From positions 2,170,001-2,234,000 of the forward strand of contig NZ_CP021251.1 of assembly GCF_002155265.1 (NCBI RefSeq): a stretch of 64,000 nucleotides of DNA. The letters run 5' to 3'. The stretch's first letter is position 1. Each line of letters begins with the position of its first letter. The notes beneath the pieces were generated by a model. The model was not told the origin of the DNA. It did not search any database and worked only from the letters and a program-made list of their open reading frames with translations. Shown here one piece after another: positions 15,826 through 28,316 of the stretch. Position numbers and translations under genes: made by a program. The stretch comes from Corynebacterium pseudotuberculosis (GTDB lineage Bacteria > Actinomycetota > Actinomycetes > Mycobacteriales > Mycobacteriaceae).

Positions 15826-15898
15826 GCCCTAGTAGCTCAGTGGATAGAGCACGGCTCTCCTAAAGCCGGTGTCGGAGGTTCGATTCCTCTCTGGGGCA
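15826..15898 (+). tRNA. tRNA-Arg (anticodon CCU)
   Basis: A 73-nt cloverleaf can be folded by eye. The acceptor stem pairs GCCCTAG with CTGGGGC, the D-arm is GCTCAGTGGATAGAGC, the anticodon stem is CGGCT/AGCCG (15852-15856/15864-15868) around loop CTCCTAA with anticodon CCT at 15859-15861, and the T-arm loop is TTCGATT. The discriminator is A and CCA is not encoded. It reads AGG codons. It sits at the left border of the accessory stretch. Confidence 0.97.
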
Positions 15899-15907
15899 CT
15901 TTTCTCT

Positions 15908-15956
15908 CCCCGTTAACTAGCGTTTTTGCAGGTTATCGGGGTTTTTCTTATTTTTC
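15908..15956 (+). terminator. Terminator after tRNA-Arg
   Basis: The stem CCCCGTTAAC/GTTATCGGGG (15908-15917 with 15932-15941) has one mismatch and is followed at once by TTTTT and further T-rich sequence. Confidence 0.85.
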
Positions 15957-16704
15957 CTGTGGTTGTCTCTCGTTTCCTGTGGGTTTGCATGGCTCTCCGT
16001 CAAAGATAAGCCACAAAACCCAGGTCGCCAGCACCGAATTCGGACTACTTTTCTGCAGCCTAAATCATTGTATTTACACACCGCGTAAGCATGGAATGAA
16101 GTCCTCCTAGCCTAAAATCAGCCTCTACTAGTATCAATGTGGACTGTTCTTTGGTGAGGGATACTGAAATGAAAGTCATATGAGCCGGTGAAACTAGATT
16201 CTGGAAATTGAAATCGTCCCGTTGAGCAAGGTGGGTCACAATGGTGGTTATACCCGGCTGTTATTACATGTTTTTCGCGTTGGCCTCAATTTATGTGCTT
16301 GATTGCCGCCTTGCGCATAAGACAAAGAACTATAACTACTGCATCACTATCAGTGCCTAAACCGGCGAATACGAAACTGCAAAGCTTACACTTGACTACA
16401 AGCTCAAGAAACAATAGATAAAAGAGAGGCCAAGGTTGGGGGGCCTCTCGTGTCATTGCATACAGCCTTGCGGCACTCCCCTTCGCAGTACTCACAACAA
16501 AAACACGGCCGCTTTCTCTCCCTCAAGCCTGCTTTTCCATAGACAAAGTCCTCACATCATGCCTCAAAATCCCCTTTTGTCTATGGAAATGCAGGCTGCG
16601 GCGCCCCACCCCGCCCCCCCTTAAATTAAAAACGCTAGAAATCCCCACCCATTTTTTGGGCCGCTGCTCTCTAGCAGTTCTCAAAAACGACAATAAAGCA
16701 ACCA
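15957..16704. other. Gene-poor region with stem-loops between tRNA-Arg and the ABC importer
   Basis: No convincing gene lies here; the short open frames lack start signals and recognisable sequence. Two structured elements stand out: a hairpin at 16425-16450 (GAGAGGCC/GGCCTCTC) and a long imperfect inverted repeat at 16526-16597. A C-rich tract lies at 16606-16620. The rest shows nothing I can name and may be decayed DNA at the edge of an inserted block. Confidence 0.5.
16526..16597. repeat. Long inverted repeat (about 23-bp arms)
   Basis: Left arm 16526-16548 (AGCCTGC, then TTTTCCATAGACAAAG) pairs with right arm 16574-16597 with only one mismatch and a one-base bulge, leaving a 25-nt loop. 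No T-tract adjoins either end, so it is not a simple terminator. It could be a small-RNA stem, a degraded mobile-element end pair, or the 3' end structure of the ABC importer transcript. Confidence 0.6.
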
Positions 16705-18153
16705 TCAGAGGAAAACTCTGCTGTTTTCTTCACAATGTTCTTCTACGAGTTCTTGATCGTGGGTAACAAAAATGACTCCGATCCCGCTGCGACACAAGTC
16801 ATGGAGCACCGCCATCACACGCGCCGCAGATTCTGGATCAAGAGCAGAGGTTATCTCGTCACATAGGAGAACTATCGGTTGCGTGGCTAGGGCGCGGGCA
16901 ATCGCAACCCGTTGTCGTTGCCCGCCAGAAAGCCCCGAAGGCAACCGGTAAGCAAGTTCCTTGGATATACCTACGCGTTCCAGTAGCTCTAATGCCTGTC
17001 GCACAGCCTCTTGGCGTCCGATCGTCCGCCGTTTCCCGATCTTCTTTAGCCTTCTCTTCTGCGTATGTGCGTCACGCACAGCACGGGCGACAGCGTCAAT
17101 GACTCGCATTTTGGGATTAAGAGTGGATGCCGGGTCTTGAGGAATTATTTGTAATTTTTTCGCATGCGTTCGCGGCCATGGCATAGAAGCCTCACGACGT
17201 GCACCATGGCATTCCACTACCCCTACGCCTTGAAGGTTACTTCCTGCCAGACATCTCAACAGCGTAGATTTTCCGCTGCCAGAGGCCCCCATAATCGCCA
17301 GGATGCGCCCAGGAACAACGGCAAAGGATAGATCTGAAAAAAGAGGAGTCCCCTCGTCCGTTGCGTAACTCAGGCCAGATGCCTGCATGCATAACGCCGT
17401 TTCCTCCCCTAACGGCTCATTATCTGCCGCAGCGCCTTGGGTTCCCAAAGTCGCCTGCGGTTTCCGTCCCTGATCCGCCGCCAGTTCAGCATTGTCGGCG
17501 TCCGTGTCACCGACACAAACATGGGCATCCAACAGATCTGGGAAAACCCCAAGTCTGTGACCTGTAATAATGATGGCAACCCCTGAGTCTGCCACGCTGC
17601 GTAGGAGGGACGCGATGGTCTTGGCTGTCACCGGATCGAGGCCGGCAAAAGGCTCATCTAGCGCGATGACGCGGGGGTTCCTAGAGAGGGCGCGGGCTAA
17701 GGCTACCCGCCGCTGTTGTCCGCCGGAAAGCTGATGCAGGCGCTTTGCGGCAGTATCCACGGTCAAGCCCACGCTGTGCAGAAGCCCTGGTACATCCGCT
17801 GTGGGGGCCAGCTCGGTAAGCATCGTATGGACCGTCATAAGTGGCGGAAGCTCTGCACCTGGGTCTTGTCCGACAAAGGCAACTTGTTCACGGCGAAAGC
17901 GCGCAAGTTCAGCAGCCCTTAGGCTTATGGGATCGACTCCGCATACAGAAAGCTTTCCAGTCACCGTAGATCCGGCTGGCACTTCACCGATCAAAGCAAG
18001 CAAGAGAGTGGTCTTTCCACATCCGCTAGGGCCAATGAGTGCTGTGATGCTGCCAGCTTGAGCCTGTACCACAGTGGCAGGAACGAGCTCGATAGCGCCC
18101 AGCGTCACCTTAATGTCTGCTTGGATAAGAGGACCGCTTGTTTTCATTGTCAC
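16705..18153 (-). CDS. ABC transporter ATP-binding protein with two fused nucleotide-binding domains (Dpp/Opp type)
   Basis: This 482-residue protein carries two complete ABC ATPase domains. The first has Walker A GPSGCGKT (41-48), signature LSGGQQRRVALARA and Walker B VIALDEP. The second, after a linker near residue 235-255, has GASGSGKST, LSGGQRQRVAIARA and VLLCDE. It is equivalent to DppD and DppF joined in one chain and should power the two permeases encoded upstream. The start overlaps the end of the preceding permease gene by 4 bp. The ASALDPES-type D-loop of the second domain is typical of oligopeptide, nickel and metallophore importers. Confidence 0.92.
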   Translation of the reverse strand: MTMKTSGPLIQADIKVTLGAIELVPATVVQAQAGSITALIGPSGCGKTTLLLALIGEVPAGSTVTGKLSVCGVDPISLRAAELARFRREQVAFVGQDPGAELPPLMTVHTMLTELAPTADVPGLLHSVGLTVDTAAKRLHQLSGGQQRRVALARALSRNPRVIALDEPFAGLDPVTAKTIASLLRSVADSGVAIIITGHRLGVFPDLLDAHVCVGDTDADNAELAADQGRKPQATLGTQGAAADNEPLGEETALCMQASGLSYATDEGTPLFSDLSFAVVPGRILAIMGASGSGKSTLLRCLAGSNLQGVGVVECHGARREASMPWPRTHAKKLQIIPQDPASTLNPKMRVIDAVARAVRDAHTQKRRLKKIGKRRTIGRQEAVRQALELLERVGISKELAYRLPSGLSGGQRQRVAIARALATQPIVLLCDEITSALDPESAARVMAVLHDLCRSGIGVIFVTHDQELVEEHCEENSRVFL

Positions 18154-18926
18154 CGGGCCTCCTTCTGCTTTATTAAAGCCATAACCGCGATAGACGCCAC
18201 TGCAAGCATTGCCGCCGGGGCCAGTACGGCAAGGGGATTGAGCGTGATGCCCCCGGCATTGTCACGCACCATCGCGGACCATGCAAACTCGCCCAGCTTG
18301 GCGCCAACGCCAAGGAAACTTGCTACAGCCAATAAGTGCAACGCCTCCACAACTCTCAGCCCCCATACTGAACGCAAAACTGTAGATATGTTGGGGAGGA
18401 TGTCGCGCATAATCACGGAGATATCGGAAGCCCCCGCATTACGCGCAGCTTGGACATAACCAGAATGAGCTACCGGGTACGCCGCAGCAGCGATCACTCG
18501 CGCGGCGTAAGGTGAGCCAACTGCCACGGCTACTACCACTAAAAGCCAGAGGCCAGAATTCGGATAGAGCACAGAAACAAGGAGCAATACTATAACGGCC
18601 GGAACGAGTATCGTAGCGTCGGCGCAGGTCTCTACAACAAATCCCATTTTTGGCCTTAAGACGCCAAAACATCCCACGATGGCTCCCACCACAGTGGTTA
18701 ACGTGCCCGCTGCCAAGGCCGTGAGGATAAGCGCTTGCCCTCCGTGTAATACAGCGCTAACTACGCTACGTCCTAGATGATCAGTACCCAGCAATGCGCC
18801 GTTTCCTGCTGTATCAAAAGGCAGTCCCGCCGCCGCATTTGGAGTGGGAAGCTGAAAAAGCTGGGCAACCAACGGCCCACATATAGATATAGCTAATACA
18901 AGCAGCGCAAATATTTTTCGTGTCAT
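18150..18926 (-). CDS. ABC transporter permease, DppC-like
   Basis: This integral-membrane subunit of about 258 residues has a first membrane segment at the N-terminus (KIFALLVLAISICGPLVAQL), the family-typical LLGTDHLGRSVVSAVLHGGQ near residue 50, and the EAA-loop segment AARNAGASDISVIMRDILPN. I set the start at the ATG at 18926, which gives an ATGA overlap with the upstream permease stop; the open frame begins 7 codons earlier. It forms the channel with the DppB-like subunit. Confidence 0.9.
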   Translation of the reverse strand: MTRKIFALLVLAISICGPLVAQLFQLPTPNAAAGLPFDTAGNGALLGTDHLGRSVVSAVLHGGQALILTALAAGTLTTVVGAIVGCFGVLRPKMGFVVETCADATILVPAVIVLLLVSVLYPNSGLWLLVVVAVAVGSPYAARVIAAAAYPVAHSGYVQAARNAGASDISVIMRDILPNISTVLRSVWGLRVVEALHLLAVASFLGVGAKLGEFAWSAMVRDNAGGITLNPLAVLAPAAMLAVASIAVMALIKQKEAR

Positions 18927-19879
18927 ACATTCACTTTCGGGGTGCACACGATTTTGAGAATATCCGCCATCGTCAGTAGGAGGAGAATAAGCGCACCAGT
19001 AGCCGCAAGGACTGCAAGAAGCACAGAAACATCGCGCTGAGAAACTGCAGTGGCAACGAGTAATCCCACACCCGGATGATTAAAGAGTGCCTCTACTGAG
19101 ACTGTGCCAGCAATTAAAACGCCCGCCGATGTTGCCATTGAGGTAGCAAAACTAGGGATTGCCAGCGGTAATACGTGCCGTCGTAACAGGCTTGTGCCCG
19201 TGACACCAGCAAGCATGGCACTTTGTACGGGTCGAGTGGCGGTGGCGTCGATAAGCGCTGCGCGTAACACTCTGGAATTCCATGCTACCTGGGGTATTAC
19301 AAGTGCTAGCACGGGTAATATGTACATGGTCGTCGAGCTGGGTAGACCGCCGTCGATAATCGTCACGGCCGGCAGCACGCCCAGCCCTAGCGCAAACACT
19401 GCCACCAAAAAGACACCGATCACAAATTCTGGGAGCGCAATGATGCTTGTCGACGCCCACTCTAGTGTGCGAGACATCCCCGACCGCGGTGACCTCTGAA
19501 CCCACCAGATAGAAGTGAGAATCGATAAGACCGCGGTGAGGATAAAAGCAATTCCCGTTGTGGTTATGGTTACCGGCAAAGCCGTGGCCAAGAGCTCAAC
19601 AATAGGTCTGCCATGAACGGATACCCCGAAATCACCAGTCAGGGCATGCCCTAGCCAGTACAAAAATCTTGTCGCGGGGGGCCGATCCAGCCCCAGACTT
19701 TGCTCAAGGCTAGCGATAGCCTCAGGAGTACGGTTTGCGCCCAGGAGGGCAGCAGCCGCATTACCTGGAAGTTGATCGATAGCAAAAAAGACAAGACCTA
19801 AAACCACGAGCAATGCACCCGCGCGAATAGCGAGCCGTGGGAAAAGCCAGTCACAAGCACGGGAAACTGCTTTTGGCAC
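18923..19879 (-). CDS. ABC transporter permease, DppB-like
   Basis: The 318-residue membrane protein has an N-terminal segment, then FFAIDQLPGNAAAALLGANRTPEAI and the SLGLDRPPATRFLYWLGHALTGDFGVS motif diagnostic of DppB/OppB permeases, and a C-terminal ALFNHPGVGLLVATAVSQRDV. Six membrane spans are plausible. It sits between the substrate-binding lipoprotein (3-bp gap) and the DppC-like gene (4-bp overlap), so the four genes form one operon. Confidence 0.92.
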   Translation of the reverse strand: MPKAVSRACDWLFPRLAIRAGALLVVLGLVFFAIDQLPGNAAAALLGANRTPEAIASLEQSLGLDRPPATRFLYWLGHALTGDFGVSVHGRPIVELLATALPVTITTTGIAFILTAVLSILTSIWWVQRSPRSGMSRTLEWASTSIIALPEFVIGVFLVAVFALGLGVLPAVTIIDGGLPSSTTMYILPVLALVIPQVAWNSRVLRAALIDATATRPVQSAMLAGVTGTSLLRRHVLPLAIPSFATSMATSAGVLIAGTVSVEALFNHPGVGLLVATAVSQRDVSVLLAVLAATGALILLLLTMADILKIVCTPKVNV

Positions 19880-19882
19880 GCT

Positions 19883-21415
19883 TTAAGCCTTCTTTACGGT
19901 TTCTAGGAGAACACGTCCATAGCCGGGAGCTTTAGGCAAACCGGATAGGCCCTTGGCCGCAATATCCACGCCGTCTGAGGCTCCCCATACCAGGTAACCA
20001 CCACGCTCGAATTCAATCTTTTGGAGTTTTTTGCTGAGCTGATCAATCTTTGATTGATCGGTAGACGCCAGCAATTCAGCATAAACCGCATCGAACTCAG
20101 CATCATGGAAGTTGGACTCGTTTGATTTAGCTGCACCGTTGAGCACTTTTCCAGCGAAGAAGAGCACTGAATCATTGGTTCCCCAGTAGCCGCAGTATAG
20201 GTCCGCTTTAGTCCAGGTGTTGTCATAAAATTGGCCAGATTCCTGCTGCACCACTTTAATCTGCACGCCTATCTCACCCAGTTGTTCAGCAATAACTTTC
20301 ATAGCTTCAACTTGACCAGGCGCCTCTGGAGTAACAAAAAGATCATATGTTTTAGAGGTATCAAAGTGGGCTTGAGCTAGCAGTTGCTTTGCTTTTTCTA
20401 CGTCACGGTGGCGCATCAGGGAAGAATCAATATTAGGGTCACCGGTACCCAGAATGTCATACGCAACAGTGCCGTATCCCGATAATGCTCGCTGTACTAC
20501 CTGCTCACGGTCAACACCCAACCGCAGCGCTTCACGGACTTTCGGATCAGCAAAGGGACCGTCAGAGGTGCGCATAATCAGTGGGATTACGGAGTCATGG
20601 GAGCGCTTAATAATCTGCACATTTGCGTTGTTTTCCGCAGACCGTGCTGCAATAGGCCCTACGGCTTGAGCAAGATCAATTTGCCCAGCAAGCAATGCAT
20701 TAGTCATCGCTGTGGTGTCTTCAAAAGGAACCACGTGGACTTCCTCAAAGCCGGCAACCGTGCCATGGTAGTCGTCGAAACGCTGCAGCTTTGCAGAGCC
20801 GTTATCCCAGCTCATCAGCTTAAATGGCCCTGATCCTACAGGCTTTTCTGGTGAGGACCCCTCCTTCATCACAAAGGTCATCAAACGCGCAAGCATAGGC
20901 AGTTGACTGTTAGGGGTCGCCGTCTTCATCTGCACGGTGCGCTCGCCAGAAGCAACGATGGACTTGGGATCCACGGGGAGCCTAAAGCCGTTGGCCTCAT
21001 CTGAAAGCATCTTAGTCAGCGACCACACCACGTCCTTAGGGGTGACCTCTGAACCATCATGGAATTTTGCGCCATCAGCGATAGTGAACTCCCACTCCAT
21101 CGGATTGAGCTGTTTCCACTGCTTCATCAGACGCGGGGCAACAATTTTGTCTTCACCAGGGACGGTTAGAGCCTCCCAGATAAGGGAGCAAATGAGCATG
21201 TCAGAATCATTTGGCAGCAGTTTATAGGGGTCACGCTGTGCGCTTGCAGCCTTACCCAGTGCGCCAACCTTAAGGACCTTTCCTGAGGCCTCCGAAGTCT
21301 TCTCGGACGAGCCATTGCCTGAGGTGTTGCCCGAGGTGCAGCTTGCTACAGCAAAGGTACCGAGACCGAGCGCCGCAACGCTGGTTAAAAACTGGCGACG
21401 AGAAAGGTTGCTCAT
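19883..21415 (-). CDS. Solute-binding lipoprotein, family 5 (DppA/NikA/CntA-like)
   Basis: The 510-residue secreted binding protein begins MSNLSRRQFLTSVAALG. The twin Arg at 6-7 indicates Tat export, and VASC with Cys26 is a lipobox, so it is probably a Tat-exported lipoprotein. The mature part has family-5 features such as WEFTIADGAKFHDGSEVTPKDVVWSL near residue 110 and GSGPFKL. The family binds peptides, nickel, haem or opine-type metallophores; the ligand cannot be read from sequence. The divergent position next to the SbnA/SbnB-like operon suggests uptake of that pathway's product or its metal complex. Confidence 0.92.
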   Translation of the reverse strand: MSNLSRRQFLTSVAALGLGTFAVASCTSGNTSGNGSSEKTSEASGKVLKVGALGKAASAQRDPYKLLPNDSDMLICSLIWEALTVPGEDKIVAPRLMKQWKQLNPMEWEFTIADGAKFHDGSEVTPKDVVWSLTKMLSDEANGFRLPVDPKSIVASGERTVQMKTATPNSQLPMLARLMTFVMKEGSSPEKPVGSGPFKLMSWDNGSAKLQRFDDYHGTVAGFEEVHVVPFEDTTAMTNALLAGQIDLAQAVGPIAARSAENNANVQIIKRSHDSVIPLIMRTSDGPFADPKVREALRLGVDREQVVQRALSGYGTVAYDILGTGDPNIDSSLMRHRDVEKAKQLLAQAHFDTSKTYDLFVTPEAPGQVEAMKVIAEQLGEIGVQIKVVQQESGQFYDNTWTKADLYCGYWGTNDSVLFFAGKVLNGAAKSNESNFHDAEFDAVYAELLASTDQSKIDQLSKKLQKIEFERGGYLVWGASDGVDIAAKGLSGLPKAPGYGRVLLETVKKA

Positions 21416-21502
21416 TTTCCACCCTGATTATTTCGAAATTACGACAAGTATTTTTAATTTGACTTAAAAGAACCGGAAATCATCTTCCCATGTTCAGAAT
21501 GA

Positions 21503-21521
21503 CCTGGCAAGGCTGTCCTAA
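21503..21521 (-). promoter_or_regulatory. Weak DtxR-like site before the binding-protein gene
   Basis: Read on the minus strand, TTAGGACAGCCTTGCCAGG matches 12 of 19 positions of the DtxR/IdeR consensus TTAGGTTAGCCTAACCTAA, including the left half TTAGG and the central AGCCT. It lies about 90 bp before the start of the importer operon. The match is weak and may be chance. Confidence 0.3.
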
Positions 21522-21585
21522 ATCTACCCGTCTCACCAGCAAAGTTGGAAATAAATCTCATTTAAGACTTTACGCATAGCTCTAA

Positions 21586-21604
21586 AAAGGTTAGCCTCAC
21601 CTCC
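21586..21604 (+). promoter_or_regulatory. DtxR (iron repressor) box overlapping the start of the biosynthetic operon
   Basis: AAAGGTTAGCCTCACCTCC matches 14 of 19 positions of the DtxR consensus, with an unbroken 10-base core GGTTAGCCT and the right half ACCT. It directly abuts the ATG at 21605. TAGCCT (21592-21597) inside the box fits a TANNNT -10 element 7 bp before the ATG, so transcription could be leaderless and be blocked by iron-loaded DtxR. DtxR control is an inference from motif and position. Confidence 0.7.
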
Positions 21605-22573
21605 ATGCAAAAAATCTTTATGGATGAAGCACTATCGCACCGATTAATTAAATCCGCTGACGAGCTCGCAGCAGTCTCATCAGTTAATGATCCCGAATCT
21701 GCCGCCGCTATCGATGCACTTCTCGAGGGTGAACTCGCCGATCTCCGAGACGTCATCTGCCCCGATCCGCGTCAACACGCTACCCTCATCGCTGGGCTCC
21801 CCTTCCCCGCAGTCAACGGGCCCACCCCTGCTTCATGGAAAGAATGCCGTGGCAAGGTCCGCACGTGGCGATTCATGCTTGCCATAGTGACATCCGTCGT
21901 GGGACGCCCCTTCGGATGGCTCGGCCAACAAGAAGGCCGGCTCATCACAGATCTCGTGCCAACCAAAGGACAAGAAGCACAACAGGTGGGCGCGAGCAGT
22001 AGCACTCCCCTCACGCTGCACACCGAAGATGCTTTCCATCCCCGGCGTTCTACCCACTTTGCATTGTTTGGACTCCGTAATCCCAAAAAAGTTGGGACAA
22101 CTTTAGCCCCTCTCGATCAAGCATGGAAACATCTAGATTCGGATTCTCGTAAGGTCCTCATGACTCCCGGCGCGGTGATTCTGCCCGATGATTCTTACTC
22201 TGATTTTGAAAACTCCGCCCCGGAATCCATGACCGCCGTCTGGGAGCGCGAGCATGGCTTAGGATTGCGCTTTGATCCCTCTTACACGGATCACTCAACT
22301 GGGTCACAGCGTTGGTGGCGAGCCTATGAAAAACTCGCCGCAGCACTCGATTCAGTAACGTATTCAGTGCCCATCGCACCAGGACAAATAGTGATTATTA
22401 ATAATGACACCTGCGTGCATGGTCGTGTTCCCTTCACTGCAGACTACAACGGCACTGATCGTTGGATGCTCCGTATTAATATGATGGAACAGGATACCCA
22501 GCGCTTGAGCTCTGAATTAGCGGAACCAGGCTATGGGCAACAGATCCGTTGCATCGATGGGCAGGTCCTATGA
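21605..22573 (+). CDS. Fe(II)/2-oxoglutarate-dependent oxygenase, clavaminate synthase-like (VioC/AsnO type)
   Basis: The 322-residue protein has the facial triad typical of the clavaminate synthase-like group: HTE at 139-141 (His139, Glu141), distal His272 in CVHGR, and a downstream Arg (286 or 290 in DRWMLRIN) for 2-oxoglutarate. Glu instead of Asp in HxE is characteristic of enzymes such as VioC and AsnO that hydroxylate free amino acids at C-beta. The substrate here is unknown. Family members and the gene context suggest it hydroxylates an amino acid building block or the finished scaffold. It is first in the operon, with a DtxR-like box on its start. An alternative ATG at codon 6 exists. 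The next gene starts in an ATGA overlap. Confidence 0.85.
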   Translation: MQKIFMDEALSHRLIKSADELAAVSSVNDPESAAAIDALLEGELADLRDVICPDPRQHATLIAGLPFPAVNGPTPASWKECRGKVRTWRFMLAIVTSVVGRPFGWLGQQEGRLITDLVPTKGQEAQQVGASSSTPLTLHTEDAFHPRRSTHFALFGLRNPKKVGTTLAPLDQAWKHLDSDSRKVLMTPGAVILPDDSYSDFENSAPESMTAVWEREHGLGLRFDPSYTDHSTGSQRWWRAYEKLAAALDSVTYSVPIAPGQIVIINNDTCVHGRVPFTADYNGTDRWMLRINMMEQDTQRLSSELAEPGYGQQIRCIDGQVL

Positions 22574-23556
22574 TCAGCTCACTCCGTATACTCCGCAACG
22601 CGGACCTCTCTCATGTTGCAGTCGCTCCCCAATCAGTTCTCAACGCCGTACGCACTGCTCTCACAGAGCTGGGGCATGGAGCCGCCGAATGCCCCGAAAA
22701 GATCACGGTCAAAGTTCCCACAAGCGTGAACTATTCAATGCTAGGCCGCAGCTCAGCATTGTCCACTGTGGGATTTAAAACATCTTTTACCCACTGGGGG
22801 CCACACAACGCAGAGGGACACCGCGAAAAATCGTACGCAACCACCCTCACGCTTTATGACGACACCACTGGTGCGCCTATCGCCATGATGGATGGTGCTC
22901 CTATCGGCGCGTTAAGAACTCCTGCTGTATCTGCAATTTTGGCGCAAGCAGTCGGTTGCAATCCCACGACCGCACTAGTTATCGGCTCAGGAGTCCAAGG
23001 GCAGCAAGCTGCGCCCTTCCTTATCACGGAATTTCCCGCATTGTCCCGGCTCATACTCTCTGGAAATCACCCAGAAGGTTTGGAAAAGGCAAAGGATCTT
23101 GCGCTCAAGACAGCGGCAAGATTGGGAAGGGAGATCGTCATTGATCTGGTCCGCGATCCTGCACCAATAGCATGCGAATGTGACCTTATTATTGGGGCAG
23201 CCGGGCCCGATACCTCAGCTGTGGTTACTGCACATGATCTCAAAGAAAATGCCACCGTTGTGGTTGTGGGCTACGGCATCGATGCCAGCGTATGCCATCA
23301 AGCAGAGCGGGTTGTCACTACAAGTAAGCAGCAGATGTATCTCACCGGAACAGATTTTGCAGATGCTCAGGGCATTATGCCGGAAGTAACTGCAGAGCTC
23401 CCCGCGCTTTTGGCGGCACAAACCCCCTTGCGGGCGTCGTCAGGCATTACTTTCTGTTACAACAGCGGCCTTGTCCTTACAGACATCGCAGTAGGTTCTG
23501 TCTTTGCAGCCGCAGCCATAGAACAAAACCTCGGAGTGGAGGTGGATCTGTGGTAG
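22570..23556 (+). CDS. sbnB: SbnB-like N-(carboxyethyl)-amino acid dehydrogenase (ornithine cyclodeaminase family)
   Basis: The 328-residue protein belongs to the ornithine cyclodeaminase/mu-crystallin family, with Rossmann motif VIGSGVQGQ (137-145) and the ALRTPAVSAI segment. Starting at the ATGA overlap removes a non-conserved 7-codon extension. In staphyloferrin B synthesis SbnB oxidatively cleaves N-(1-amino-1-carboxy-2-ethyl)-glutamate to L-2,3-diaminopropionate and 2-oxoglutarate. Because an SbnA-like gene lies in the same operon, this role fits better than ornithine or alanine metabolism. The 2-oxoglutarate released could feed the oxygenase. The assignment is inferred from family plus context. 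Confidence 0.8.
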   Translation: MISSLRILRNADLSHVAVAPQSVLNAVRTALTELGHGAAECPEKITVKVPTSVNYSMLGRSSALSTVGFKTSFTHWGPHNAEGHREKSYATTLTLYDDTTGAPIAMMDGAPIGALRTPAVSAILAQAVGCNPTTALVIGSGVQGQQAAPFLITEFPALSRLILSGNHPEGLEKAKDLALKTAARLGREIVIDLVRDPAPIACECDLIIGAAGPDTSAVVTAHDLKENATVVVVGYGIDASVCHQAERVVTTSKQQMYLTGTDFADAQGIMPEVTAELPALLAAQTPLRASSGITFCYNSGLVLTDIAVGSVFAAAAIEQNLGVEVDLW

Positions 23557-24908
23557 CTGCCCCCCTGTGCCGTATGCCAATCCCACATTGGCAGGAAGAA
23601 TTAGCACACTCATCAACATTGGAAAGCATCGCCCATGCCGCCCGCGGTCCCTTCCACGTTCTGTATCCGCAAAATTTCACGGATACAGCGAGACTCTGGC
23701 TTGATACCGCCGCAGATACGGGAATCACCTTTGGGCTGCGATTTGGCAAGAAGTCCAACAAAGCTGGATGCTTTGCGCGGAACCTCGCCGATTTATACGC
23801 GCAGGGGAACAACGCTGGAATCGACGTTGCCAGCACCGATGAACTACGTGCTGCACTATGCGCAGGACTGCCTGGAGAACAACTCGTGGTTACGGGTCCT
23901 ACCCCTACCGCTGAACTCATCCGGCTGGCTTCTTATCACGGCTCTCTTATCACGATCTCCCGCCCCGAAGATATTGACGTTATAGCCGGGACCATCTACA
24001 ACATAAAGCCAACAAAAAGTCTCAGGATACTGCTCCGTCTTAGCTCGGATGGTGTACATACGCGCTTTGGCATGAGCCTCGAACAAAGTTACGCCGTGGC
24101 ACAGACGTTGGAGTCTGGTCGCTATCAAGATCTTCCATTAGACATCGCTGGTGTGAGTTTTCATTGCAATGGCTATGACCTAGACGAGCGCATCCGGATG
24201 GCCCATAAGGCGACAGATGCTGTGCTAAAACTCCGAGAATGGTCTTCGGCCTCCATCGTATCTATCGGTGGTGGTTTTCCCACGTCGAGTATTTCTCCGG
24301 AGTTATGGAACGCCGTGACCGAGCAACTTACGCCTTCTATGTTTGTCACCGGCAGAGTTCCTGGCGATCAATATCCGTTTGCCGCAAATTGCGCAGGCGC
24401 AGAAGCACTCCGCTACATCTTGACTCAAGGAACAACGAGCCTGAAAGATAAGGCGATTTCTCATGGAATCACGATATTGGCTGAGCCGGGGAGAAGCTTG
24501 TGCCAAGCAGCCGGAGCAAGCTATTTTCCAGTGCTTTCATGCCACGAACTCCCTAATACTGAAGGAAACGTAACCGTTGTAGAAGGCACCAGTCTTAGCT
24601 TGTCTGAGCAGTGGTTTGACTCAGAGTATTACCCGGACCCATACCTCATCCGCGCAGGCAAGATCCTAAGCCAAGGTAATCCCACTGATTCCGCTGTAGC
24701 AGGGTCTACTTGTTTGGATAGCGATTATCTGAGCAGAAGATTTATCCGTTTCCCAGATCGCCCCCAACCCGGCGATATCCTGGTTTATCCCGATACTGCG
24801 GGCTATCAAATGGATTCCAACGAGTCCTCGTTTCATGGCAAAGAGCCTCCCAAAAAGTTTGTCTTTTCCACCACCCCACACCATCACTTCACTGAGGATT
24901 TTTCATGA
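23550..24908 (+). CDS. sbnH: SbnH-like PLP-dependent decarboxylase (fold type III, DAP/ornithine decarboxylase family)
   Basis: The 452-residue protein has an alanine-racemase-like PLP barrel followed by a C-terminal beta domain. The PLP-lysine region is FGLRFGKKSNKAGCF (61-75). Later come SIGGGFP (phosphate-binding glycine loop) and AEPGRSL, which contacts PLP. It begins with GTG and overlaps the SbnB-like gene by 7 bp. In staphyloferrin B assembly SbnH decarboxylates a citryl-diaminopropionate intermediate; related enzymes decarboxylate meso-diaminopimelate, ornithine or lysine. With SbnA and SbnB homologues on both sides, an SbnH-like role is favoured but the substrate is unproven. It is distinct enough from LysA (no usual YAVKAN motif) that it is unlikely to be the housekeeping enzyme. 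Confidence 0.78.
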   Translation: MVAAPLCRMPIPHWQEELAHSSTLESIAHAARGPFHVLYPQNFTDTARLWLDTAADTGITFGLRFGKKSNKAGCFARNLADLYAQGNNAGIDVASTDELRAALCAGLPGEQLVVTGPTPTAELIRLASYHGSLITISRPEDIDVIAGTIYNIKPTKSLRILLRLSSDGVHTRFGMSLEQSYAVAQTLESGRYQDLPLDIAGVSFHCNGYDLDERIRMAHKATDAVLKLREWSSASIVSIGGGFPTSSISPELWNAVTEQLTPSMFVTGRVPGDQYPFAANCAGAEALRYILTQGTTSLKDKAISHGITILAEPGRSLCQAAGASYFPVLSCHELPNTEGNVTVVEGTSLSLSEQWFDSEYYPDPYLIRAGKILSQGNPTDSAVAGSTCLDSDYLSRRFIRFPDRPQPGDILVYPDTAGYQMDSNESSFHGKEPPKKFVFSTTPHHHFTEDFS

Positions 24909-25975
24909 CCAACACCGTTGTTACCCGCGTATCACAGCTCATCGGAAATACCCCGCTATTCGAGCTCGTAGCCACGCCTTCAGGAAGCCGAGTGCTGCTC
25001 AAACTCGAGCAGTTTAACCCATCAGGAAGCGCAAAAATTCGCATGGCCGAGTCCATGATTGACGCAGCAGAGGCTGACGGCAGACTCCAGGCTGGAGGTA
25101 CGATCGTAGAATCAACCTCAGGAAACACTGGACAAGGCCTGGCTATCCTTGCGGTCGAGCGCGGTTATGAATTTGTGGCTGTCGTGGATAATCACTCCTG
25201 CAAAGACAAACTCAATGCCATGAGTGCAATGGATACCAAGCTCGAATATGTGGCTGCAGAAGGTGATGATGCGCTTGCCACCTCGGCTCGCGAGGATTAT
25301 GCCGAAGAACTGGGACAACAACCCGGATGGGTATTTATGAAGCAGCACGATAACGAGGCCAACTCCAAAGGCTACTACCCAGCCGCAGACGAAATCATAG
25401 AAACATTGGGGCATTGCCCGTCTCACCTGATTAGTGCCGTAGGCACAGGTGGAAGTCTCTTCGGTGTTACGGAACGCCTTAATGAGCTGGGCTATCGACC
25501 ACACACAATAGGAGTAGAACCTGAAGGCTCTATCGCCTTTGGTGGCCCGGCGCATGATTATCGACAATCAGGCACCGGTACTCCCGAGGGAGCCGTTATC
25601 GGAACTGCAGTGCGCTATGATCTACTCGATCTGGGAGCAAAGGTCTCTGATATCGCTGCCTTTGCAGCTTGCCGGACAATAGCAAAACACACTGGACTCT
25701 TACTCGGAGGATCTGCCGGTGGTGCCGTTGTTGCCGCACTAGAGTTGCTTCCTACATTGCCTGCTGGCTCCACATCAGTAACTATGGTCTGCGATGGCGG
25801 CGAAAAATACTTGGATACTGTTTTCAATGACTCGTGGATGCGATCGCATAACCTGCTCGATTCCGACCTTGAGGAACAAATCTGGAAGCATATAACGACG
25901 TTGCGTGAGGGTAGAACTCCCACTCCTCTCAAACTCACCCGTATCTCTTGGTCAAAGGAAAAAACGTGCGTCTAA
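24905..25975 (+). CDS. sbnA: SbnA-like PLP synthase (cysteine synthase family, predicted diaminopropionate pathway)
   Basis: The 356-residue protein is a fold type II PLP enzyme. It has IGNTPL (13-18), NPSGSAK with PLP Lys44, TSGNT (71-75) for the substrate carboxylate, and AVGTGGSLFG for the PLP phosphate. Canonical cysteine synthase has NPGGSVKDR; here the D is replaced (KIRM), as in diaminopropionate-forming relatives. SbnA condenses O-phospho-L-serine with glutamate to give the substrate of SbnB. The gene starts in an ATGA overlap with the decarboxylase gene. A housekeeping cysteine synthase is the alternative, but the SbnB-like partner argues against it. Confidence 0.82.
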   Translation: MTNTVVTRVSQLIGNTPLFELVATPSGSRVLLKLEQFNPSGSAKIRMAESMIDAAEADGRLQAGGTIVESTSGNTGQGLAILAVERGYEFVAVVDNHSCKDKLNAMSAMDTKLEYVAAEGDDALATSAREDYAEELGQQPGWVFMKQHDNEANSKGYYPAADEIIETLGHCPSHLISAVGTGGSLFGVTERLNELGYRPHTIGVEPEGSIAFGGPAHDYRQSGTGTPEGAVIGTAVRYDLLDLGAKVSDIAAFAACRTIAKHTGLLLGGSAGGAVVAALELLPTLPAGSTSVTMVCDGGEKYLDTVFNDSWMRSHNLLDSDLEEQIWKHITTLREGRTPTPLKLTRISWSKEKTCV

Positions 25976-27384
25976 TTAGCTCTGGTTCACAAGATCTCAG
26001 CTCTTTACACAGACAGCTTCTCCGGCTTTCACTCCCGTTAGCGGGAACCCAACTGGCCAACATTGCGTTATCCGCCACAGATACCATCGTGATGGGCTAC
26101 CTCAGTGTTGCAGCACTAGCAGGTGGCGGCCTGGCCGTGATCTGGTTTAACCAAATTCGCACGATGGCAGTCGGGCTTCTCACTCCCCTGGGAAACCGTA
26201 TCGCGCAAGTTCATGCACAATATGAGCAAAACCCCAGCAGTGAATTGCAGCAAGACATCCGCAACCTCACACGTACAGGGCTGTTCTTGGCAACGGCAAG
26301 TGGCATCATCGGTGCAATTCTTCTGGTTCTGATTAGCTACGCGCTACCGCTCTTTGGCCAGCCGTCAGAAGTTACCGACGCCGCTATCCCCATGATGTGG
26401 GCCTTAGCCCCTGGGCTTATTCCGTGCTTGTGGTTCCAAGTGTCAAGGCAATTTTGTGTAGGCCTAGGCAAACCACAATCGCTACTGGGAATTACTCTCG
26501 CAATGGTAGTTGTCAACGCCTTGCTAAACTTCGTTTTTGCCTTTGGGTATGGGCCTTTCCCAGAGCTTGGTCTCGTAGGTATTGGGTTATCCACAACGCT
26601 CGTGCACTGTGCATCTGCTGCGGCCTATTTTGTTTTAATCAACAGAAATCCTGAAATTAACGAGTTCCATGCCATCGACTTTTGGCGTCGCGACGCAACC
26701 GCCTTCCGTTCCCAACTCCTTCCGCAGCTGCGTACTCAACTGCGTTTAGGTGCTCCGGTCTCAGCCACGTATGGCGCGGAAGCCGGCATGTTCTCGGTCT
26801 TAGCCCTCATCATGGGGTCTTTCGGCGCAGATGCTCTTGCGGCTCACAATGTTGTGTATCAAGTTACGTTCATCGTTTTCCAAATCGGAATCGGTTTTTC
26901 CCACGGAAGCTCAATATTAGTCAGCCGTGCATACGGGCTTCACGACATCCCACTCTCCCGCCGTATCGGACTACAAGCGCTAACCATCATGATGGTCGTG
27001 GTTTCTGTGGCTGCGATTTTCTTCCTTTTCACTCCCGAACTAGTACTCCGGCCATTCATGCGTGATGCGACCCCCGAGGCGCTGGCGCTCGCCGTGTCTT
27101 TGCTGATGATCGGCGCGCTCATGGAGTTTGTAGATACTGGACAAAACCTGGCTATCGGTGCTTTGCGCGGTATCAATGACACGTCAACAGGGCTCAAGGC
27201 CTCACTCTTGGGCTATTGGGTTGTAGGACTTCCCGCTGCTTTAGCCTTTGCCTATGGGTTTGATCTCGGCCCCCATGGAATCTGGTGGGGTTTAGTCACT
27301 GGGCTAGCAACGTCAGCGTTCCTTTTATGGGCCACCTTCCTGCGGAAAACCCAAGATCCAGAAAGTAATAGATTAAGTACTTAG
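25966..27384 (+). CDS. MATE-family multidrug/metabolite exporter
   Basis: The membrane protein of about 472 residues has 12 predicted spans in two halves, with MATE-family patterns such as LPLAGTQLANIALSATDTIVMGYL at the start and GAPVSATYGAEAGMFSVLALIMGSFG at the start of the second half. I prefer the GTG at 25966 because AAAGGA stands 6 bp before it; the frame is open from a TTG at 25948. It overlaps the SbnA-like gene by 10 bp and is the last gene of the operon, followed by a terminator. The context suggests export of the small molecule made by the four enzymes. Confidence 0.9.
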   Translation: MRLISSGSQDLSSLHRQLLRLSLPLAGTQLANIALSATDTIVMGYLSVAALAGGGLAVIWFNQIRTMAVGLLTPLGNRIAQVHAQYEQNPSSELQQDIRNLTRTGLFLATASGIIGAILLVLISYALPLFGQPSEVTDAAIPMMWALAPGLIPCLWFQVSRQFCVGLGKPQSLLGITLAMVVVNALLNFVFAFGYGPFPELGLVGIGLSTTLVHCASAAAYFVLINRNPEINEFHAIDFWRRDATAFRSQLLPQLRTQLRLGAPVSATYGAEAGMFSVLALIMGSFGADALAAHNVVYQVTFIVFQIGIGFSHGSSILVSRAYGLHDIPLSRRIGLQALTIMMVVVSVAAIFFLFTPELVLRPFMRDATPEALALAVSLLMIGALMEFVDTGQNLAIGALRGINDTSTGLKASLLGYWVVGLPAALAFAYGFDLGPHGIWWGLVTGLATSAFLLWATFLRKTQDPESNRLST

Positions 27385-27732: not shown

Positions 27733-28316
27733 ATGATGCCCGAGCCCACCCCTCAGCCAACGCATAACCCGTACCCTCAACAACTCCCCGCAAAAAAGAA
27801 AGGCGGGTGCTTTAAGTGGGGCGCCATCGTGGGAGGCTGTCTTCTCGTTCTTCAAATTGCTTCCATGCTGGGCGACGGCGATAGCACCGATATCTCTGCG
27901 GTATCCCCCACAACTCAGCAGCAAGCCATAAAAAACATCGCTGCGGCTCCACAGGAAACCAAGGCCGCAATTACTCCTTCGCCCGCCAACGCTGCAACTA
28001 CTCCCAGCGTCCCTCGTGAATTCAAAAATGCATTGCGCAGCGCCGAACAATATTCAAAACTCATGCATATGTCTAAGGCCGGTATTTATGATCAGTTAAC
28101 ATCTGAGTACGGGGAAAAGTTCAGCGCGGAAGCCGCGCAGTATGCAATTGACACGATCAAAGTCGATTGGAACAAAAACGCGCTGGAGTCAGCAAAAAAT
28201 ATCAAGATTCTATGGCGATGTCTTCTGATGCAATTTACGACCAATTAGTCTCCGAATACGGAGAAAAATTTACCCCTGAGCAGGCCAATTATGCTATTAG
28301 CAACCTTCCACAATAA
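27733..28316 (+). pseudogene. Ltp-family surface protein with frameshift in second repeat
   Basis: The frame begins MMPEPTPQPTHNPYPQQ, a Pro-rich head, then a single hydrophobic segment (GAIVGGCLLVLQIASML), a Ser/Thr/Ala/Pro linker, and an Ltp-type repeat (FKNALRSAEQYSKLMHMSKAGIYDQL then SEYGEKFSAEAAQYAI). A second repeat starts ALESAK, but after six A at 28194-28199 the frame ends early at 28248. With one more A the second repeat reads on as YQDSMAMSSDAIYDQL and SEYGEKFTPEQANYAI to a stop at 28314-28316. So a one-base deletion in a homopolymer breaks an otherwise intact two-repeat protein. Ltp-type domains occur in phage superinfection-exclusion and surface proteins of Gram-positives. It may be real decay, phase variation or a sequencing error. 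Confidence 0.85.

Follow-up and report, generated by a model that had tools for sequence, protein, structure and literature searches.

A nine-gene locus of Corynebacterium pseudotuberculosis is probably a version of a described aminopolycarboxylate siderophore cluster

A cluster for the siderophore EDHA (ethylenediaminesuccinic acid hydroxyarginine) has reportedly been described in Streptomyces scabiei 87-22 by Spohn et al. in 2018. Passages of later publications associate EDHA with the 11-kb region scab_5231 to scab_5311 of that strain (PMC8914351), report the S. scabiei cluster as iron-responsive (PMC10702961), and list the EDHA cluster as MIBiG BGC0002567, with a count of 1,450 windows of the EDHA family across 24 genera, including 266 in Corynebacterium (PMC11888242). 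According to one of these passages, earlier reports of the cluster cover S. scabies, S. avermitilis, C. pseudotuberculosis, C. ulcerans, and N. brasiliensis (PMC10702961, citing Spohn et al. 2018). In the genome paper of C. pseudotuberculosis FRC41, a cluster of ogs, ocd, odc, tsb, mdtK, and stsABCD is named as DtxR-regulated (PMC3022926). Here, we analyzed a 64,000-nucleotide stretch of a C. pseudotuberculosis genome (contig NZ_CP021251.1, positions 2170001–2234000 of 2,337,763 bases; hereafter, the window), in which nine open reading frames (ORFs) at 16705–27384 form a block of four minus-strand importer genes diverging from five plus-strand genes (Table 1; FRC41 gene names are used, with tsb called PALP). 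We conclude that this block is very probably the Corynebacterium version of the EDHA aminopolycarboxylate siderophore cluster and that it would make, export, and re-import an iron chelator. Such a cluster is already recognised in print, including in Corynebacterium, and is ordinary in kind. The assignment draws on gene content and order, an iron-box-like site, the enzyme families, and the predicted metal-binding residues of the oxygenase, all as read from the sequence.

The genes for PALP, the OCD-like protein, the pyridoxal phosphate (PLP) decarboxylase, and the MATE protein share one operon, as membership in an EDHA-type cluster requires. To place the block in a wider family, the genome collection was scanned with 21 aligned ocd relatives, which returned 284 encoding stretches; the best 80 were kept, and the counts given here describe these closest loci. 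They come mostly from Streptomyces and Nocardia, with seven from proteobacteria. We found that ogs-ocd-odc-PALP-mdtK was complete in 70 of the 80 loci (Actinomycetota and Pseudomonadota), that a divergent stsA was present in 39, and that all nine genes were present in 28 (BLAST). Among the 10 incomplete operons, six lie at contig ends (L030, L051, L065, L068, L069, and L088) and four had no mdtK match (L071, L077, L083, and L084). The locus of S. scabiei 87.22 (L061) contains all nine genes in the same order, with the divergent importer, over about 11.0 kb; the strain, the size of 11 kb, and the gene number (if locus tags step by tens), rather than the tags themselves, suggest that it is scab_5231–5311. 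An importer divergent as in S. scabiei is thus found, judged by stsA, in the window, in L061, and in 38 other loci. An importer of this kind was not seen among seven ORFs of two sampled Nocardia loci; stsA is present at two N. cyriacigeorgica loci. In the proteobacterial loci, a TonB-dependent receptor lies directly 5′ of the operon in all five tested (of seven), and FecCD was identified in the single downstream protein tested; among three upstream ORFs tested, one contained FecR.

The oxygenase ogs is the gene that would supply the hydroxyarginine part of EDHA, a role suggested by the compound name and by the gene content of L061. A VioC-type hydroxylase gene, which we expect in an EDHA operon on the same two grounds, is present in the window: the ten best solved-structure matches of ogs are CmnC or proteins labelled L-arginine hydroxylase, and its metal ligands are kept. 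Specifically, an alignment of 78 of the 80 oxygenases showed H139 and E141 (Fe ligands) and D195 conserved in all 78 relatives, with H272 (Fe ligand), R286, R290, and D224 conserved in 77 and a gap in the remaining row. The 2-oxoglutarate Arg region is kept in ogs and its relatives, and D224 aligns with an Asp of VioC; we take D224 and D195 to be the counterparts of the substrate-binding aspartates of VioC. The best NCBIfam models for ogs were GntD (198.5 bits; cut-off, 345) and VioC (179.1 bits; cut-off, 418.6). These scores below cut-off, an identity of 37–43% to the actinobacterial oxygenases from outside Corynebacterium, and two deviating residues (L289 in place of K in 68 of 71 actinobacterial relatives and S226 in place of A in 69) would fit a product of the same class, an iron-chelating aminopolycarboxylate, that is not EDHA itself, with a diverged ogs hydroxylating another amino acid and Corynebacterium making an EDHA variant. 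We regard this variant as possible but doubtful, given that ogs keeps its Fe ligands, D224, and the Arg region for 2-oxoglutarate and that its ten best structural matches are CmnC or arginine hydroxylases. Four proteobacterial oxygenases displayed (L026, L037, L050, and L063) have the metal motif HNEEAF, not HTEDAF, and that of L043, the one scored, outscores the ogs of the window on the GntD and VioC models (323 and 276 bits, respectively); a variant product is possible in the proteobacterial clusters.

The initial annotation had proposed an iron-regulated metallophore. The predicted DtxR-type box just upstream of ogs, AGGTTAGCCTCACCT, is one of two sites in the genome with a single mismatch to the DtxR core AGGTTAGSCTAACCT, and these are the two best sites of the genome; sites with no more than two mismatches number seven, vs one for the reversed pattern. 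Its sequence is identical in two of the related Corynebacterium genomes described below (G067 and G173) and differs by two mismatches in the third (G100). We then scanned the region from 350 bases before to 150 bases after the called ogs start in 78 of the 80 loci (excluding L069, with no ogs, and L089, with a short upstream region). The best match had at most three mismatches in 52 of these 78, compared with 14 of 2,804 further 500-base windows taken from the same loci; most of the control windows are coding and related loci are not independent, but the contrast is nonetheless large. The proposed metallophore system of enzymes, exporter, and importer is supported by the box, the similar sites in relatives, and the TonB/FecCD neighbours in proteobacteria, while induction of the cluster was not shown in Table 1 of a published RNA-seq study (PMC6701010), to which we return below. 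A hydroxylated amino-acid antimetabolite or signal, rather than a metallophore, would be compatible with the additional use of VioC-type oxygenases and of diaminopropionate enzymes in making antibiotics. With the iron box, the TonB/FecCD context, and the assignment of such clusters to EDHA in passages of the literature (PMC10702961 and PMC8914351), we consider it the least likely of the alternatives, at the edge of what is plausible.

The enzymes that the initial annotation had called SbnA- and SbnB-like were compared with curated models. The SbnA model TIGR03945 was the best for PALP (218.2 bits; cut-off, 349.95), above cysteine synthase A (202.8 bits), and the SbnB model TIGR03944 was the best for ocd (68.4 bits; cut-off, 326.9); the resemblance thus holds as the top curated model in both cases, while equivalence is not supported by scores so far under the cut-offs. 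The nearest named relative of ocd is from C. silvaticum, with 84% identity across 54% of the query. A profile of the ocd family matched 6t3e (pyrroline-2-carboxylate reductase) first and 4m54 (SbnB) second; in the displayed alignments, the ocd family, like 4m54, lacks the stretch around the catalytic Asp of ornithine cyclodeaminase. The named relatives of odc, SbnH-like in the initial annotation, are largely Y4yA-family proteins. A housekeeping identity (CysK, LysA, or OCD) was rejected, with the block enzymes being neither the sole nor the best-scoring family copies: the genome has other genes scoring better for PF00291, PF02784, and PF02423 than PALP, odc, and ocd, respectively.

From these families, the following pathway can be proposed. 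Under low iron, DtxR would release the promoter; the oxygenase would hydroxylate free L-arginine, and the SbnA-like PLP synthase would turn a serine ester into an aminoacrylate, to which the amino group of hydroxyarginine (or of aspartate) could add to give an N-substituted diaminopropionate. The Y4yA-type decarboxylase might then strip the diaminopropionate carboxylate to leave the ethylenediamine bridge, and the SbnB-like dehydrogenase may either reduce an imine joining a succinate arm from oxaloacetate or free diaminopropionate, as SbnB does. The predicted product, as its name reads, would carry two amines, three carboxylates, and one hydroxyl; the MATE protein would export it, and the divergent StsABCD importer would take up its iron complex.

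Neither an NRPS (nonribosomal peptide synthetase) nor an IucA/IucC family was present among the nine block proteins in the Pfam listing, which bears out the earlier observation that the block has no NRPS or NRPS-independent siderophore (NIS) synthetase. The initial annotation had suggested that an assembly enzyme might lie elsewhere, for example, as a ciuE-like gene; this suggestion falls away for an EDHA-type product, because such a product would need no separate NRPS or NIS synthetase. The IucA/IucC matches of the genome are limited to two domains of a single open frame, which lies about 0.4 Mb from the block. They belong to a CiuE-like protein of 1,132 aa (L010, 8164–11562) at the genome's other siderophore locus, whose neighbours, judged by eye, resemble a ferric-siderophore importer and exporter. 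An operon that makes L-2,3-diaminopropionate by staphyloferrin B logic for assembly by this distant synthetase would account for the SbnA and SbnB top models and for the two IucA/IucC domains. We disfavour this scheme as very unlikely, since the operon is self-contained, with its own exporter and importer, and widely shared, recurring as a unit in distant genera and adjoining TonB receptors in proteobacteria; the ciu locus, for its part, is reported with an importer and exporter of its own in the passage on it (PMC3022926).

Several points weigh against the assignment to EDHA. The proteins of the S. scabiei cluster are only 38–57% identical to those of the window. The curated models score ogs (GntD and VioC), PALP, and ocd below their cut-offs, and ogs keeps only one of the two guanidinium aspartates of VioC. 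Importers of the Nik/Opp type are unusual for ferric siderophores. No box with three or fewer mismatches was found in 26 of the 78 relatives, including all seven proteobacteria. The passages on the EDHA operon define it by four genes, AesA–D, and mention no oxygenase (PMC10702961). Lastly, the low-iron RNA-seq of C. pseudotuberculosis names no block gene in Table 1 or the main text; under low iron, strain T1 showed an about fivefold decrease of Cp1002B_10210, a “substrate-binding protein” (PMC6701010). The tag number of Cp1002B_10210 would fit the stsA region, and the protein could be StsA. The ciu and fag genes were likewise not differential under iron limitation in that study (PMC6701010).

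Within the genus, three further Corynebacterium genomes share the nine genes with order and orientation unchanged (G067, G173, and G100; G100 and G173 are also loci L014 and L015 of the 80, and the two sets therefore overlap). Block proteins of G067 are 81–97% identical to those of the window and those of G100 50–76%; in G100, the eight genes that flank the block in the window were all absent from the 19.9-kb stretch compared. Because order and orientation recur in three other genomes, in G100 without the flanking genes, the nine-gene grouping is not a matter of chance. Conservation of the block in related genomes, which the initial annotation had named as a check, is seen in the complete sets of 28 of the 80 loci and in its recurrence in these three genomes, with some genes broken in G173. 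At this C. silvaticum locus (L012/L015, i.e., G173), ocd, odc, stsA, and stsB each match in pieces, as if several genes were decaying.

A near full-length oxygenase was present in four of 201 Corynebacterium genomes (six at E ≤0.001, the extra two weak and partial); members of the ocd family were found in 10 of 242. Weak (31–33%), partial oxygenase relatives occur at L005, L006, and L007 in two other Corynebacterium genomes, one of the frames having an internal stop. Six further ocd loci of the genus (L113–L118) contain ocd, odc, PALP, and mdtK, and no oxygenase was found within 18–20 kb (tblastn). Pfam searches at two of them identified SBP_bac_5 and Peripla_BP_2 proteins near both and FecCD near one. 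In a tree of PALP (n = 31: the window, 22 of the 80 five-gene loci, the six four-gene loci, and two of the four other PALP matches of the genome), C. silvaticum and C. minutissimum are the partners of the window (100/100), and the oxygenase-free loci, all six, cluster together (93/90). Both additional PALPs of the genome lie outside, but their branches are very long, for which reason the tree was used solely for grouping the cluster enzymes. A regulator scan with one DtxR pattern and three Zur patterns identified DtxR-like sites with two mismatches at two of the six loci (L117, just 5′ of ocd; L118, 3′ of mdtK), vs two matches in nine reversed control loci, and a Zur-like site with two mismatches at one (L117, 5′ of the binding-protein gene), vs one match in the controls. 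An EDDS-like cluster is reported in C. striatum in a passage of PMC10486106. The four-gene loci may be EDDS-like metallophore loci. Tentatively, gain or loss of the hydroxylase within the genus could change the product from a zinc metallophore resembling EDDS to an iron metallophore resembling EDHA, or back, and the regulator box and importer would change in step; we hold this to be improbable. The occurrence of forms with and without the oxygenase in one genus makes the role of the hydroxylase in metal choice testable; the publications consulted do not discuss this co-occurrence, although no literature search was aimed at it.

As for the layout of the block, the coordinates and strands first given for all nine ORFs were confirmed, as were the gene families (double ABC ATPase, two permeases, SBP_bac_5, oxygenase, OCD, decarboxylase, PALP, and MATE), by Pfam and NCBIfam. 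Gene overlaps had been put at 4–10 bp. This range holds from ogs to PALP: ocd most likely starts at ATG 22570 (328-aa form; 4-bp overlap with ogs), odc at GTG 23550 (7 bp), and PALP at ATG 24905 (4 bp). For mdtK, it holds only with GTG 25966 (10 bp) and not with TTG 25948 (28 bp). Just downstream, at 27733–28248, lies a gene whose product has a Lipoprotein_Ltp domain (“host cell surface-exposed lipoprotein”); on the other side, at 15826–16704, are a tRNA-Arg gene and about 600–800 bases without a clear gene, a possible insertion edge.

Table 1. Predicted features of the block (window coordinates)
Feature	Position	Strand	Basis
stsD-like fused double ABC ATPase of importer	16705..18153	-	Two ABC_tran stretches in one protein
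stsC-like importer permease, NikC/OppC type	18150..18947	-	PF00528 (BPD_transp_1); NCBIfam Opp/Nik C models below cut-off
stsB-like importer permease, NikB/OppB type	18923..19879	-	PF00528 (BPD_transp_1); NCBIfam Opp2B/NikB models below cut-off
stsA-like substrate-binding protein of importer	19883..21415	-	SBP_bac_5, E 3.1e-67
Predicted DtxR-type iron box AGGTTAGCCTCACCT	21588..21602	+	1 mismatch to AGGTTAGSCTAACCT; 2 bases 5′ of ogs ATG
ogs, Fe(II)/2-oxoglutarate amino-acid hydroxylase, VioC/CmnC/GntD type; proposed substrate L-arginine	21605..22573	+	CmnC, E 2.8e-39; TauD fold
ocd, SbnB-like NAD(P)-dependent dehydrogenase/imine reductase	22570..23556	+	OCD/mu-crystallin; TIGR03944 top model, below cut-off; profile matches 6t3e, 4m54
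odc, Y4yA/LysA-type PLP decarboxylase; proposed maker of ethylenediamine unit	23550..24908	+	PF02784; Y4yA-family relatives
tsb/PALP, SbnA-like beta-replacement PLP synthase	24905..25975	+	TIGR03945 top model, below cut-off
mdtK, MATE exporter; start 25948 or 25966	25948..27384	+	PF01554 and TIGR00797, both over cut-off

The assignment places what is probably the second predicted siderophore locus of an animal pathogen in a described family and suggests a specific compound to search for. Of the known systems, the EDHA cluster of S. scabiei is the closest: all nine genes of the block recur at L061 in unchanged order, with the importer divergent. The EDDS zincophore cluster of Amycolatopsis japonicum probably shares the four-gene core logic; it is zinc-regulated and lacks the hydroxyarginine arm. 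Clusters of the EDDS type are not known to have an oxygenase in the operon, and the presence of ogs sets the window apart from them. The staphyloferrin B enzymes SbnA, SbnB, and SbnH belong to families related to those of the block; unlike that system, the window has PALP and ocd proteins scoring far below the SbnA and SbnB cut-offs and no NIS synthetases in the block. In C. pseudotuberculosis FRC41, the second siderophore cluster under DtxR control has the same nine functions and the same predicted regulator and, compared by function, is apparently the same locus; the passage describing it gives generic functions only and no product (PMC3022926). The initial claim of no characterised equivalent was therefore wrong: the S. 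scabiei EDHA cluster matches in size and gene content, and Corynebacterium clusters are named in passages already in print (PMC3022926 and PMC10702961).

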